Source: a virus
Virus record (IMG/VR): IMGVR_UViG_3300038825_000790
Coordinates: 3,071 to 30,067 of that record
Length of the DNA stretch: 26,997 bases
Strand: one strand, 5' to 3'
Under the pieces are notes generated by a model, which worked only from the letters and a program-made list of their open reading frames with translations, was not told the DNA's origin and made no database searches. Positions 20,751-26,893 of this stretch are shown here, piece after piece (position 1 is the first letter of the stretch; each line of letters opens with the position of its first letter). The position numbers and the translations under genes are program-made.

Positions 20751-20779
20751 TTGACTTTATGTGTAAAACAGCTTATATT
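20751..20779 (+). promoter_or_regulatory. Rightward sigma70-type promoter for the packaging genes
   Basis: TTGACT (20751-20756), 17 bases, TATATT (20774-20779) followed by G. The predicted start near 20786 leaves about 2-3 bases before the ATG at 20789. An in-frame TAG sits directly before that ATG and no Shine-Dalgarno is present. Confidence 0.8.
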
Positions 20780-20788
20780 GAATAATAG

Positions 20789-21553
20789 ATGATTACCAGA
20801 AAAATAAAAAAGGTAAATCATCCGATTTATGAAAATGTTGAAGAATTCCAGAGGTACAATCCTAGTGGTGATGTTGTCAGCAATTGGAGGAAAGGCACCG
20901 AGGGTAGCTGGGTAGTTTCAGACGATGGACAAGTTTGCCAGGTATTGAAACGTGGGGAGTTGCGTGCATCCGCTTCTAACAAAGTAGTTAGAAATTATAT
21001 TAGGATACCTCTGGGAACTTTTGTTTGCGATGAGAAAGTTAAGATAGAAGGAGAGCCTAGAAAAAATCTTTACTCATTTGGCTTGGCTGATAAGAGTGCT
21101 TATAGACACAAGATTGAGAAAAAGGAAACCACACAAAGAGAGTTTTTGTTTGCTCAGTTTGTGGCTAAGGGCGAAAACATAGTAGATGCTTTCTTAAAAG
21201 CTTATCCTACAGACAATCGTCGTTATGCGGAAGGTCAAGCCAAAATTTTATTAAAAGCAAAGAGGATACAGAAATTGATTAGAGATGAAATAGATAAAGT
21301 ACTTGTGGATGCTGATATAACTCCTTTGTATCTTTTAGAACAAATGAGAAGTATTGTAGATAGTGGCGACTCTCAAGATAGAGATAAAATTCAAGCAATA
21401 AAAACCTTAATGCAGATTAGCGGAATGATGGATACTGAAAAGAGAACTGAATCCGTTGCTGTATTCCAAGGATTTACAAAGGAGCAATTAGATGCGATCG
21501 GGTCAGGCAAAGTCAAACAGCTTGCAGCGGCTGAAAAAGAAGTTGAACTCTAA
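20789..21553 (+). CDS. terS: Terminase small subunit (probable)
   Basis: 254 residues. The C-terminal half fits small terminase proteins: QREFLFAQFVAKGENIVDAF, LKAYPTDNRRYAEGQAKILL, then IQKLIRDEIDKVLVDADITP and IQAIKTLMQISGMMDTEK. This is a helix-turn-helix-like segment that would bind the packaging site, then a helical oligomerisation core. The first ~110 residues are a basic, strand-rich extra domain that I do not recognise. The gene has its own promoter and lies three small genes before TerL. The call rests on sequence flavour and position; no motif is absolutely diagnostic. Confidence 0.8.
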   Translation: MITRKIKKVNHPIYENVEEFQRYNPSGDVVSNWRKGTEGSWVVSDDGQVCQVLKRGELRASASNKVVRNYIRIPLGTFVCDEKVKIEGEPRKNLYSFGLADKSAYRHKIEKKETTQREFLFAQFVAKGENIVDAFLKAYPTDNRRYAEGQAKILLKAKRIQKLIRDEIDKVLVDADITPLYLLEQMRSIVDSGDSQDRDKIQAIKTLMQISGMMDTEKRTESVAVFQGFTKEQLDAIGSGKVKQLAAAEKEVEL

Positions 21554-21955: not shown

Positions 21956-22302
21956 AGTTAGCTGTATACGGAACATTAAGAAGTGGTAATAAGAATACAG
22001 GTATACTAGAAAATTCTTCACTTGTATATCCAGGTCATCATACTTTTCCAGCTGTTATACAAAACAAAAATGGTTCTGGAACTGTAGTAGAAGTCCATGA
22101 TGTCACTGAAGAAGATTTAGCTAGATATGATATGTATGAAGGAATTGATTCTGGATTATATAGAAGAGTTAAGACTGATGTTAAAATGGATAGTGGAGAT
22201 ACAGAAAATGTTTGGGTGTATGTAGCTGGCGATGAGTTAATGCAAAGAAGTAATTCTTTTAAAGTTATTAAAAGCGGAGATTGGTACAATAGAAAAGTTT
22301 AA
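21952..22302 (+). CDS. Gamma-glutamylcyclotransferase-like protein (AIG2/GGCT fold)
   Basis: 116 residues with the family's opening KLAVYGTLRSGNKNT (YGTLR-x-G), the central LARYDMYEGIDSGLYRR and the final strand ENVWVYVAGDE. GGCT-fold enzymes turn gamma-glutamyl amines into 5-oxoproline plus free amine. The catalytic Glu is probably in DMYEG or just before, but I cannot fix it by eye, and many relatives are uncharacterised. It sits inside the packaging operon and its end overlaps the open frame leading to TerL. A link to the amidoligase system on the other strand is possible. Confidence 0.78.
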   Translation: MKLAVYGTLRSGNKNTGILENSSLVYPGHHTFPAVIQNKNGSGTVVEVHDVTEEDLARYDMYEGIDSGLYRRVKTDVKMDSGDTENVWVYVAGDELMQRSNSFKVIKSGDWYNRKV

Positions 22303-22345
22303 TATAATACCTAATGACCTAAGTGAAAAAGAACGTGTTCTTAAT

Positions 22346-23860
22346 ATGGTATCTAAAGACCTAGTTGCTTTTGGTCAACTGTTTTTGCCTGAGGATTTTA
22401 TGAAAAGTTCTCCAGCTCCATTTCATTATGAAGTTGGAAATAAATTACTAGATAGAACTTTAAGAAAGCTATGTGTTGTTCTTCCTAGAGGTCACTCTAA
22501 ATCTACAATGGCTAAAGCAGCTTTACTTCATAGAATATATTTTAACCCTAAAGGAAAAAAAGAATTTGCAGCTTGGGTATCGGAAGAACAGGGTCAAGCA
22601 GTTGATCATTTAAAGTATATAAAAAATCATATTGAATATAATAATGCATTACATTATTACTTCGGAGATATGGTTGGAAATAAATGGACTGAAAAAGAAA
22701 TAACTACTAGCAGAGGAGACAGGTTAATTGCAAAAGGAACAAGTCAAAGACTTAGAGGTAGGTCTGAGCTAGGTACACGATATACAAATATTATACTTGA
22801 TGACTTTGAATCTGAATTAAATACTAAAACTCCAGACAGAAGAAGAGAAATTAAAGAGTGGTTGATGTCTACAGTTTATCCATCATTAGAAGAGTCAAAA
22901 GGAAACGAAGGTTCTATCTGGTTGATTGGTACTATTGTACATTATGATTCTGCATTGCAAGCCATATACGATGGTTATTTAGAAGCTAAAGATAAAGACG
23001 AAGAGTATACTTGGGATGTTATTTTTCATAGAGTTTTAGAAGATGGAAAACCTCTTTGGGAATCTTATTTTAATAAGAAAAAAATAAATCAAATAAGAAA
23101 AGATTATGAGAATGTAGGTCAGTTACATAAGTTTGCTCAAGAGTATATGAATGATGCTAGAGACTTGGCAACTGCTAAATTTAAAATAGATAAATTGCAA
23201 CATCATGATTATCAATTTGTTTCAAGTAACAAACAGGCTTACATAAGGGATAATGATAAAGTTATTCCAGTTAATGTTTATATTGGTGTTGATTTAGCTT
23301 ATGAATCTAATGCTCATAATGACTTCCAAGTTATAATGGTAACTGCTGTGGACAGTGAAAAGAATTTTTATATATTAGATTATTATCACGAGCATCTTCC
23401 TTTGTATGAAATGCCTCAAAAAATATTTGAATACGCTAAAATGTATTCTCCAGTTAGAAGAGTTAATGTAGAACACGTTGGTGCTCAGGGTATCATAAAA
23501 GACTCTGTTAATAAGATGGGTGGATTTGATAGAAAGATGGCACCAGGTATTGCAAGAGGAGTTAGACCTCCTAATGGAATAAAAAAAGAAGATAGATTAG
23601 AATCTGCATTATGTCCTATTGTTAACAGAGGAAAGTTATTTCATAGAAAGATACATCAAGAAATTGTTGATGAGATGTTTCACTTTCCAAAAGGAAAGAA
23701 CGATGACCTACTTGATGGTCTTTGGTATTCTGTAGTCAATGCTAGATCTCCTCTTAGTAAAAGCTTTTCTTCTGATAAATTTGATGTTGAAAAATCAGAT
23801 AGACGTAAAAAATCAAAGAAATCTCTTGTTAGAAGCTGGATTACTGGACAAAGAACCTAA
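22346..23860 (+). CDS. terL: Terminase large subunit
   Basis: 504 residues from the first ATG. ATPase: Walker A-like VVLPRGHSKST (44-54; R-G-H-S-K-S-T variant), Walker B NIILDDFESE (about 148-157) and a coupling segment WLIGTIVHYDSA. RNase-H-type nuclease: VYIGVDLAYES (first Asp), VNVEHVGAQG (Glu), then GKNDDLLDGLWYS (C-terminal Asp). It powers and cuts DNA during packaging. The ATG at 22346 has a poor Shine-Dalgarno, and the frame continues upstream with sensible residues (NIIPNDLSEKERVLN) but no ATG, GTG or TTG, so the true start may be ATA or ATT between 22280 and 22307. Confidence 0.96.
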   Translation: MVSKDLVAFGQLFLPEDFMKSSPAPFHYEVGNKLLDRTLRKLCVVLPRGHSKSTMAKAALLHRIYFNPKGKKEFAAWVSEEQGQAVDHLKYIKNHIEYNNALHYYFGDMVGNKWTEKEITTSRGDRLIAKGTSQRLRGRSELGTRYTNIILDDFESELNTKTPDRRREIKEWLMSTVYPSLEESKGNEGSIWLIGTIVHYDSALQAIYDGYLEAKDKDEEYTWDVIFHRVLEDGKPLWESYFNKKKINQIRKDYENVGQLHKFAQEYMNDARDLATAKFKIDKLQHHDYQFVSSNKQAYIRDNDKVIPVNVYIGVDLAYESNAHNDFQVIMVTAVDSEKNFYILDYYHEHLPLYEMPQKIFEYAKMYSPVRRVNVEHVGAQGIIKDSVNKMGGFDRKMAPGIARGVRPPNGIKKEDRLESALCPIVNRGKLFHRKIHQEIVDEMFHFPKGKNDDLLDGLWYSVVNARSPLSKSFSSDKFDVEKSDRRKKSKKSLVRSWITGQRT

Positions 23861-23866
23861 AAATGC

Positions 23867-23895
23867 TTGACAAATAGCACACTTTGTGTTATATT
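23867..23895 (+). promoter_or_regulatory. Rightward sigma70-type promoter for the virion genes
   Basis: TTGACA (23867-23872), 17 bases, TATATT (23890-23895). The predicted start near 23902 leaves a ~22-base leader with AAGGAG (23911-23916) ahead of the portal gene. The -35 begins six bases after the TerL stop. Confidence 0.85.
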
Positions 23896-23923
23896 ATATA
23901 TATAGATACCAAGGAGTCGCAAT

Positions 23924-25933
23924 ATTAACTACGTAGAAACTTTTGCCGAGCATGAAGATGCTCAGGCTAACCGAGACTTATGGAGAAGATGGAGAGATGC
24001 TAGGTCTAACTGGGAAGTAGAATCTAGAGATGCTATAGATTTTGTTCTAGGCAATCACTATTCTACTGAAGAATCAGAAATGCTTCAATCAGTTGGGCAA
24101 GGTGATTTTATTATAGACAGAGTTTATGCTGCTGTAGATAAGCTTAAGTCTTTATTAACTTCTAGGAATCCAAAATTCTCTGCTGTTGCTAGAGAGGATT
24201 CCGATTATAAACTAGCAAACGTATGGCGTACCATACTAGAGTACGTTTGGGATATCTCCGATTGTAACACACATTTTAAACAAGTAGTGCATGATTACTC
24301 TGTTGCAGGCATAGGTTATTTCTATGTTTATGTTGACCCAGAATCAGACTATGGAAGAGGTGATGTTAAAATTACAGGAGTGAATCCTTTTCGTGTTTAT
24401 GTAGACCCAGCCTCAAGAGATAGATATAACGCAGATGCTTCTTCTATTATGCTTTCTACTATTCTTACCAAAGAGCAACTCCTTGGATTATACCCACAAC
24501 TTGAAGAAATAATAGATAGTATAGATAGTTCAACAGATGAAGAAGATTATCCTGCCTCCAAAAAGAAAAATTCCTCTTCTTCTTTTACGCCTGACATTGT
24601 TAAAGATTATGATCGCGGTGGTTACGAAAAATTCAGAATCTTGGAGAGGTTTGAAAAAATTAAAGTTCCTTATTACAGATTGTTTAATAAGGAAACTCAA
24701 GAAGAAAAAATAGTAGATTTAGAATCATTTCAAAAAATTCTATCTGAAAACTCTCATTTGATAGAATCGGGACTGGTAGAAGCAGTAGAAGTCCTACAGA
24801 CACGTATACGACACGTCGCGACTGTAGGGCAAATTTTACTATACGAGCAAGTTCTCAACACTGATATATATCCTATTGTACCAGTCCCAAATATTTGGAC
24901 TAACACTCCATATCCTAAATCAGATGTTACTAAAGTAAAAGATTCACAAAGATTAATTAATAAATTATTTTCACTTACATTAAGCCATGCTCAAGCTTCA
25001 GCTGGTTTAAAATTGTTAGTTCCAGAAGGTAGTGTAGATGATATAGGTCAGTTAGAAAGAGACTGGGCTAATCCAAATGCGGTTATTGAATATAATCCAG
25101 AGTTTGGTGAACCACACTATCCAGCTCCTCAACCATTGGCTTCAGAGTTTTATGGCTTAATTGCTAGAGTGGAACATTATATAGATTTAAATTTTGGCAT
25201 ATCAGAATTAATGCAAGGATTTAGACAAGGAACTCCAGATACGGCTAGAGGGACGTATATGCTTCAAGAAATGGGAGAGACTAGAGGACGTTCCAAACTT
25301 AAAGATATAGAGGGAAGCCTAGATGTTCTTGGAAAAGTAGTATATAACTTTTGCAAAGGACACTATGGATTTAAAAAGACTTTTAGAGTCGTGCAACCGA
25401 ACAATGACTTAACAGAATTTACCATCAACAATAGAATGTATGATGATAAAACTAATGAGTTAATGTCTATTGAGAATGATATTTCTCTTGGTCAGCATGA
25501 TATTCGGATAATATCAGGTTCAACGCTACCATCTAATAAGATGGCTGAGTACAATATGTATTTAGATGCTTATAAGTTGGGCTTGGTAGATGATGTCGAG
25601 GTTTTAAAGAAAACAGAAATCTACGACAAAGAAGGTGTCTTGCAACGGAAAGGCGCTATGAGTCAGATGCAAGGTTACATACAACAACTTGAAGAACAGG
25701 TTAAGAAACTAAGTGGTGATTTGCAAACGTCAGAACGTGAAGCAGTAAATGCTAGAAAGCAAACTATTACTCAGAAATTTAAGACTGGATTAGATTCCGT
25801 TCTTAGTGATATAAAAGATAAAGAAAGAAAAAATCTGAACAAGTTAGAAAATGTAATTGACAAAGCTGATTTGCAGGCTAAGTATGGTCAAAAGCAGGGA
25901 CAAGGCATACAGGGTGCCGAAGAAGGCGTTTAA
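23924..25933 (+). CDS. Portal protein, apparent ATT start
   Basis: 669 residues if begun at ATT 23924, 617 from the first ATG at 24080. The 52 upstream codons read as protein (NYVETFAEHEDAQANRDLW; EVESRDAIDFVLGNHY) and AAGGAG lies seven bases before the ATT; no ATG, GTG or TTG occurs between. The body fits T7-like head-tail portals: FIIDRVYAAVDKLKSLLTSR, GIGYFYVYVDPESDYG, NPFRVYVDPASRDRYNAD, SELMQGFRQGTPDTARG, then a long C-terminal coiled coil and a Gln/Gly-rich end. It should form the dodecameric ring for DNA entry. It follows TerL and precedes scaffold, as expected. Confidence 0.9.
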   Translation: MNYVETFAEHEDAQANRDLWRRWRDARSNWEVESRDAIDFVLGNHYSTEESEMLQSVGQGDFIIDRVYAAVDKLKSLLTSRNPKFSAVAREDSDYKLANVWRTILEYVWDISDCNTHFKQVVHDYSVAGIGYFYVYVDPESDYGRGDVKITGVNPFRVYVDPASRDRYNADASSIMLSTILTKEQLLGLYPQLEEIIDSIDSSTDEEDYPASKKKNSSSSFTPDIVKDYDRGGYEKFRILERFEKIKVPYYRLFNKETQEEKIVDLESFQKILSENSHLIESGLVEAVEVLQTRIRHVATVGQILLYEQVLNTDIYPIVPVPNIWTNTPYPKSDVTKVKDSQRLINKLFSLTLSHAQASAGLKLLVPEGSVDDIGQLERDWANPNAVIEYNPEFGEPHYPAPQPLASEFYGLIARVEHYIDLNFGISELMQGFRQGTPDTARGTYMLQEMGETRGRSKLKDIEGSLDVLGKVVYNFCKGHYGFKKTFRVVQPNNDLTEFTINNRMYDDKTNELMSIENDISLGQHDIRIISGSTLPSNKMAEYNMYLDAYKLGLVDDVEVLKKTEIYDKEGVLQRKGAMSQMQGYIQQLEEQVKKLSGDLQTSEREAVNARKQTITQKFKTGLDSVLSDIKDKERKNLNKLENVIDKADLQAKYGQKQGQGIQGAEEGV

Positions 25934-26045
25934 GGTTAACAATCAGAGTCAAGCTTTACCTAAGGGATATCTATTGGTATCGCCCATTTTAAGAGTAAAG
26001 AGATTCGGAAAGGAAGAATGGAAGACCAGAAAACAGAACAAGTAG
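25914..26045 (+). CDS. Small basic protein between portal and scaffold, 43 aa
   Basis: A GTG start at 25914, with AAGG upstream, gives PKKAFKVNNQSQALPKGYLL then VSPILRVKRFGKEEWKTRKQ. It overlaps the portal end by 20 bases and the scaffold start by 28, and fills the gap between them. An in-frame ATG at 25857 would run far into the portal gene. Basic; function unknown. Confidence 0.65.
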   Translation: MPKKAFKVNNQSQALPKGYLLVSPILRVKRFGKEEWKTRKQNK

Positions 26046-26893
26046 GAAAGACTTATGAAGATAAGTTAGTTGAGGATCGTCAGGGTATTGATATATCAAT
26101 GCCAGACGTTGAGGTAGTTAGTAAAGAAGTCTCAGTTGATGAAAATATGGAAGCTGAGGGTGAAGGTGTTGTAAGAAGACCTAGTGTTATTACCGATGAA
26201 GGTAATGAAGAGCAAATAGATTATGGTACTGATTGGGAAAATGAAACTAAAAAATTCCAATCTATGTATGATAAACAAAAAGCTGAATACGATTCTTTGC
26301 AATCTCAAGTTCAACAAATGGAACCTTTAAAACAATTGCAAAATGTTTTAGAATCTAGACCTGATGTAGTTGAAGCTATACAGGAAAGATTACAGGGAAA
26401 ACCTACTACTAGAAATGAGACGATTCAACCTGATAATCAAGTTGATGAATCCTCATTTGACCCGTGGGAAGCCTATTACAAACCCGACTCTCCTTCGTAT
26501 AAATTACGAGTAGAGAAGGAAAGGGCTTTGGTTAACGAAGCAGTCACCGAACAGATGGCTGGTATCCAAAGTCAGGTTGCTATGCAGAATTTAAAAGGCG
26601 AGTTAAAGTCTAAGTACGGTATGGCGGATGATAGTGAAATTGAAGAATTTATTAACTTTGCAATGACTCCAAGAGATCAATTGCCAGTTGATTTATTAAT
26701 TGATGTTTACAGACAGCATTACAATAAAGGTGTTAATGCTCCATCATCTGAAAATATACAAGCTGTGGCGAATACTCAAGCTATGCCAAAGTCAGCTGGT
26801 GTTTTACAGGGCGGTGAGCCTAACGTAAAAAGCGAAGTTGATGTTTCTTGGGATAGAATTTTAAAGGCTGGCAACGCAGGAAGATTACTTTAA
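26018..26893 (+). CDS. Capsid scaffolding protein (probable)
   Basis: 291 residues, acidic and without cysteine. The N-terminal ~75 residues are Glu/Asp/Val-rich and probably disordered; a coiled coil follows (TKKFQSMYDKQKAEYDSLQS, VQQMEPLKQLQ), then a Pro/Asn-rich hinge and a C-terminal helical region with YKLRVEKERALVNEAVTEQM. The composition and its place between portal and capsid are those of T7-type scaffolds that guide procapsid assembly. The ending WDRILKAGNAGRLL is typical of scaffold ends that touch capsid protein. AAGGA precedes the ATG. The call is positional plus composition. Confidence 0.85.
   Translation: MEDQKTEQVGKTYEDKLVEDRQGIDISMPDVEVVSKEVSVDENMEAEGEGVVRRPSVITDEGNEEQIDYGTDWENETKKFQSMYDKQKAEYDSLQSQVQQMEPLKQLQNVLESRPDVVEAIQERLQGKPTTRNETIQPDNQVDESSFDPWEAYYKPDSPSYKLRVEKERALVNEAVTEQMAGIQSQVAMQNLKGELKSKYGMADDSEIEEFINFAMTPRDQLPVDLLIDVYRQHYNKGVNAPSSENIQAVANTQAMPKSAGVLQGGEPNVKSEVDVSWDRILKAGNAGRLL

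Follow-up and report, generated by a model that had tools for sequence, protein, structure and literature searches.

How is translation of a portal protein begun when the first ATG in its reading frame is codon 53? This question is raised by a 26,997-nucleotide stretch of viral DNA (hereafter, the window), which covers the greater part of a virus record of 30,067 bases. The initial annotation proposed that the portal gene starts at an ATT codon, and our reading of the locus agrees with all of the elements from which this proposal was assembled, namely the TAG, the AAGGAG, the gap of 7 nt, the ATT, and the ATG at 24080, together with the absence of ATG, GTG, and TTG between the last two (Table 1). 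The ATG lies 52 codons downstream of the ATT, with no in-frame canonical codon in the interval, and no canonical start is present in any frame between the Shine-Dalgarno (SD) sequence and the ATT. What had been described as a good promoter is likewise real as a pattern. With the promoter ending at position 23895, a leader of ~20 nt is expected. In addition, the TTATATTATA element upstream of the portal gene recurs in most close relatives.

Table 1. Positions of the translation signals and genes discussed in the text, numbered from the first base of the window.
Feature	Position	Strand	Details
SD-like GGAG for large terminase	22276..22279	+	Within the 3' end of the upstream gamma-glutamylcyclotransferase-like (GGCT) gene
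Large terminase CDS	22289..23860	+	Probable ATA start at 22289-22291, 9 nt after GGAG; listed ATG at 22346 probably internal
Sigma-70-type promoter, TTGACA-17-TATATT	23867..23895	+	11/12 consensus matches; in the top three of 52 in the scanned region
In-frame stop TAG	23903..23905	+	Left limit of the portal frame
SD sequence AAGGAG	23911..23916	+	7-nt spacer TCGCAAT before ATT
Portal start codon ATT	23924..23926	+	SD-spaced ATT, ATC, or ATA in 82/124 distinct relatives
Portal CDS	23924..25933	+	669 codons counting ATT as start; PHROG 156; stop-bounded frame 23906-25933
Predicted portal N terminus from ATT			(M)NYVETFAEHEDAQANR; fMet-Asn-Tyr-Val-Glu-Thr
Possible mRNA hairpin, portal codons 8-15	23945..23967	+	3' of the proposed weak start; a lead only
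First in-frame ATG (internal Met53)	24080..24082	+	Not conserved; rejected as start

The gene can be assigned as a portal by a match to the PHROG 156 profile (E = 2.1e-66) that spans residues 23-663 of 669, and by a match to the PDB portal 8jov (E = 6.6e-10). Gene order around it is large terminase (PHROG 38, 22289-23860), portal, a gene in the scaffold position (26018-26893), and then a gene in the capsid position, which we read in the related contig L020 (8976-10379); the scaffold and capsid genes are named from gene order and appearance rather than from profile matches. An AlphaFold model of the portal, computed from a 22-sequence alignment, has a mean pLDDT of 40 and supports no claim made here. 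Searches with the terminase and exonuclease gave only remote matches, all below 60% identity and, among the matches listed, reaching up to ~26% and 46%, and a scan of genome contigs revealed no cellular or prophage relatives. All of the relatives used below are metagenomic contigs, from a large group of uncultured, mostly marine phages. At the left edge of the window, a 704-codon frame (2-2116, open at the edge) has no match to a PHROG family.

As part of trying to establish whether the ATT is peculiar to this phage, we scanned IMG/VR with the portal protein and obtained 274 relatives, of which 80 were kept. In the 79 that have a readable codon at the corresponding place, this codon is ATT or ATC in every case and never ATG, lying two codons further on in three of them (L066-L068). 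Further scans reached ~60% identity and, after removal of duplicates, gave 124 distinct portal 5' regions (60-100% identity) in which the start codon is read as ATT in 45, ATC in 29, ATA in 8, ATG in 40, and TTG in 2. The three isoleucine codons (the AUH class) thus account for 82 of the 124 sequences, and an SD core is located 6, 7, or 8 nt upstream in 82/82. The scoring of spacing in this class favored 7, although there was usually a single candidate. Moreover, in 71 of the 82 the stretch that runs from the upstream stop to the RRWRDAR motif contains no in-frame ATG, GTG, or TTG; a canonical codon does occur in the remaining 11, but it is not placed relative to the SD where the scoring accepted a start. 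An ATG at the SD-spaced isoleucine position, for which the initial annotation had suggested looking in relatives, was seen in none of them. The use of all three isoleucine codons in its place favors the view that the non-AUG start is genuine and maintained by selection.

Conservation at the level of codons points to the same place. In the clade to which the window belongs (35 sequences), codon-like conservation sets in exactly at the isoleucine codon: mean entropies at the three codon positions are 0.22, 0.16, and 0.82 over codons 2-24, as against 0.81, 1.26, and 1.10 just upstream. The first two bases of the start codon are invariant, and the third is T, C, or A. The N termini of homologues, another comparison that had been proposed, also fall where an ATT start predicts, since solved portals align with the product of the ATT frame from close to its first residue (residue 16 of the query with residue 13 of the chain in the Pam1 portal 7eep, and residue 23 with residue 22 in 9vyf), and the PHROG 156 alignment begins at residue 23. 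With the codons seen in relatives, the SD spacing, and these N termini all in its support, the original placement of the start at position 23924 is upheld, and on these comparisons of sequence and alignment we regard a start at the isoleucine codon as near certain.

Other accounts of the 5' end are hard to reconcile with these observations. Translation might instead begin at Met53, at a non-AUG codon further upstream, or in another frame followed by frameshifting or coupling; AUG is, after all, the default start, and an out-of-frame ATG is present at 23952. Residues before position 53 are, however, conserved and align with known portals, whereas Met53 itself is replaced by I, A, S, or D in relatives that do not have M, and the ATG at 23952 is not kept. 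The upstream stop lies only 1-8 codons before the isoleucine codon in most relatives, a distance of 4-8 codons being usual, and in three of them (L154, L161, and L189) it falls between the SD and the start, leaving just ACC and the isoleucine codon. In the window, no frame has an ATG, GTG, or TTG between SD and ATT. We consider a start elsewhere very improbable, and both Met53 and a frameshift from another frame were rejected on the strength of this conservation, these stops, and the alignments to known portals. An error of sequencing or assembly that hides a true ATG, or decay of the gene, comes to mind because a single base separates the two codons and because 669 codons without a canonical start look artefactual at first. 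This chance is negligible: the six contigs L001-L006, assembled independently from different samples, have a leader nearly identical to that of the window and the same ATT, so that a sequencing error at 23924 is excluded, isoleucine codons appear in 82 distinct sequences, and all 669 codons are intact and under strong purifying selection. It is therefore confirmed that the ATT is neither a sequencing error, a possibility raised at the outset and refuted by conservation across relatives, nor a quirk of one phage.

Why such a codon should be kept in this gene is a separate matter. The portal of tailed phages, the ring by which DNA enters the head, is a dodecamer, present in 12 copies per virion, and the coat protein is needed in hundreds of copies. 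The initial annotation had thought an AUU start unusual for an abundant structural gene, but this description of the portal is wrong, and a weak start makes sense for a low-copy protein. We propose that the normal initiator fMet-tRNA would start the portal at AUU (AUC or AUA in relatives) by near-cognate pairing, so that the protein would begin with methionine, and that the strong SD at the best distance would help this initiation to proceed at a fraction of the AUG rate. The non-AUG codon would then represent deliberately weak initiation, keeping the portal far below the nearby major capsid protein, which is encoded with an AUG and a good SD. In the major capsid gene, located two genes downstream and serving as control, the start is ATG in 68/68 sequences with an SD spacing of 5-11. 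This contrast, like the codon, its conservation, its spacing from the SD, and the absence of other starts, can be read directly from the sequences.

The portal genes that do begin with ATG offer a second comparison. In all 40, a spacer of just 3-4 nt separates the SD from the ATG, which occupies the codon before the isoleucine position, in contrast to the 6-8 nt found for every AUH start; in 38 of the 40 (sister clade, e.g. L193, L178, and L210), the ATG follows GGGAG by 3 nt, an unusually short and conserved spacing. In this group, therefore, a favorable codon comes with a short spacer and a poor codon with a favorable spacer, and the sister clade seems to arrive at the same outcome by means of an AUG placed 3-4 nt behind the SD. 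A spacer-3 AUG would be weak under the E. coli spacing rules that are assumed here. Two observations count against the reading of the portal start as deliberately weak, these being that the ATG of the scaffold-position gene is also often found 3-5 nt behind its SD, and that the lack of ATG at the isoleucine position rests on few independent events. A tree of the portals requires at least 11 changes of start codon, of which three are between AUH and canonical codons, and at least 8 are exchanges among isoleucine codons. Given that these exchanges are few, the fact that the third base is never G is, taken alone, suggestive rather than decisive. We nevertheless infer weak initiation in the host, with a benefit in dosage, and we think it quite probable that deliberately weak initiation sets the dose of the portal and, probably in the same way, that of the large terminase.

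Only two genes of the window, those for the portal and the large terminase, conspicuously combine the lack of a canonical start with an isoleucine codon placed behind an SD. No ATG, GTG, or TTG precedes position 22346 in the terminase frame, and a conserved N terminus, FNIIPNDLSEKERVLN, lies upstream of the ATG at that position. An ATA is found 9 nt after GGAG in 51 of 56 main-clade sequences, and 13 of the 56, the window included, have no canonical start before a conserved FN motif. In the terminase frame of L201, with a stop located after the SD, no candidate but ATT is left. Two points call for caution: the bases around this start are also constrained as the 3' end of the overlapping GGCT-like gene, and an ATG or GTG is present five codons upstream in many relatives. 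We conclude from these sequences that the terminase of the window probably starts at ATA, and this protein, which is also low-copy, probably uses its AUA as the portal is proposed to use AUU.

Three other explanations for the persistence of these codons deserve consideration. The AUH codon may be a neutral relic, in which an ancestral mutation was tolerated and inherited without benefit, and the clustering of codon states on the portal tree (11 changes, compared with ~50 in shuffles) is in keeping with such a history. Selection normally favors AUG, however (PMC5622118), and drift does not readily explain why at least 8 exchanges among isoleucine codons include none to ATG, or why a strong SD has been kept at 6-8 nt when AUG is found only at shorter spacing; we regard this history as improbable. 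A regulatory role is somewhat easier to imagine. Initiation on the portal (AUU) and terminase (AUA) might rise at a low ratio of free IF3 to ribosomes, and an IF3-controlled switch of this type would time synthesis of the packaging motor, much as infC or sigR (GTC start) respond to IF3. The codon class is that of infC (ATT in E. coli and ATC in Streptomyces; compare IF3-repressed sigR, PMC5472188), the feature is common to two adjacent packaging genes, and a search of the records of 20 relatives found no IF3 gene, so that host IF3 would be the input. Sister clades, however, use UUG or spacer-3/4 AUG starts that should be less sensitive to IF3, and the existence of these lineages means that IF3 sensing cannot be essential across the whole group. 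Such a switch is possible but doubtful, and it seems on the whole unlikely that synthesis of the packaging motor (portal AUU/AUC/AUA and terminase AUA) follows the ratio of IF3 to ribosomes in infected cells; if it did, the coupling would amount to phage-wide use of infC logic for the stoichiometry and timing of virion assembly. Finally, a special initiator tRNA or altered decoding, encoded by phage or host, might read isoleucine codons as starts, as could be imagined from the use of all three isoleucine codons and of no other non-canonical codon. No tRNA genes were found in the window or in the loci of 13 relatives, AUA would need a different anticodon from AUU and AUC, and ATG is the start of other genes in these phages. 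This explanation was rejected on these three grounds, its likelihood being exceedingly small.

The deliberately weak start that we favor may be accompanied by structure in the mRNA. Relative to random synonymous codons, folding energies in the region of the possible hairpin (Table 1) are lowered in two AUH clades, with mean z values of -1.6 and -1.9, compared with -0.2 for the ATG clade. RNAalifold returned no alignment-wide consensus pairs for this hairpin, which is accordingly only a lead. In a separate part of the window, the gene at 20789, in the position of the terminase small subunit (region 20751-20791), is without an SD. A TTATATTATA-type -10 element is found almost directly before the ATG of this gene in relatives (L134, L058, and L062), perhaps implying that its mRNA is leaderless or nearly so.

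A practical outcome is that gene finders limited to ATG, GTG, and TTG will miss or truncate the portal and large terminase in these genomes, the portal losing 52 residues in the window and ~95 in L020. Beyond annotation, an essential assembly gene has kept an AUH start throughout a large group of phages, with turnover among the isoleucine codons, providing a natural experiment on the portal-to-capsid ratio of a virus. We found no report of an AUU-type start for portal genes or any other phage assembly gene, most subscription literature being outside our search.

This class of start codon is already known (infC, sigR, and ccpN), with AUU, AUC, and AUA starts described from a handful of mostly cellular genes, and their rarity is illustrated by a reconstruction over 36 groups of prokaryote genomes in which one of 61,358 AUG starts became AUU (PMC5622118). 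Portals of the same family, such as the members of PHROG 156 and the Pam1 portal (7eep), have N termini that match the ATT frame from close to its first residue, and the annotated relatives MW202615, LASTA, and BA3, only 18-26% identical, carry conventional portal annotations. An AUU start that was missed by annotation, with truncation of the N terminus, has been described for pncA/bbe22 of Borrelia burgdorferi (PMC13398362), a single bacterial gene with no phage context. In S. aureus, cvfC1 (AUU) and ccpN (AUA) resemble the portal in having a non-canonical start behind a strong SD, and the start of ccpN is conserved between S. aureus and B. subtilis; AUU and AUA starts with extended SDs in S. 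aureus give ~10% of AUG output in poor medium and, for ccpN, up to 30% in rich medium (PMC13009471). Unlike the portal, these are cellular genes with no link to virion stoichiometry. The comparison with infC made in the initial annotation is apt as a type of mechanism, because this gene for IF3 also has an isoleucine start that is exchanged across relatives (AUU in E. coli, ATC in Streptomyces, and AUA in S. aureus; PMC5472188, PMC13009471) and a strong SD, extended in S. aureus (PMC13009471). It differs in being cellular and self-regulating through its own product, whereas the portal gene encodes a structural protein of phages in which we saw no gene for IF3. For the balance between portal and capsid, Streptomyces sigR offers a parallel: its GTC start, repressed by IF3, lies outside the AUH class and belongs to a bacterial sigma factor, but, as proposed here for the portal, a non-canonical start keeps one of two neighboring, interacting products in the minority (PMC5472188).
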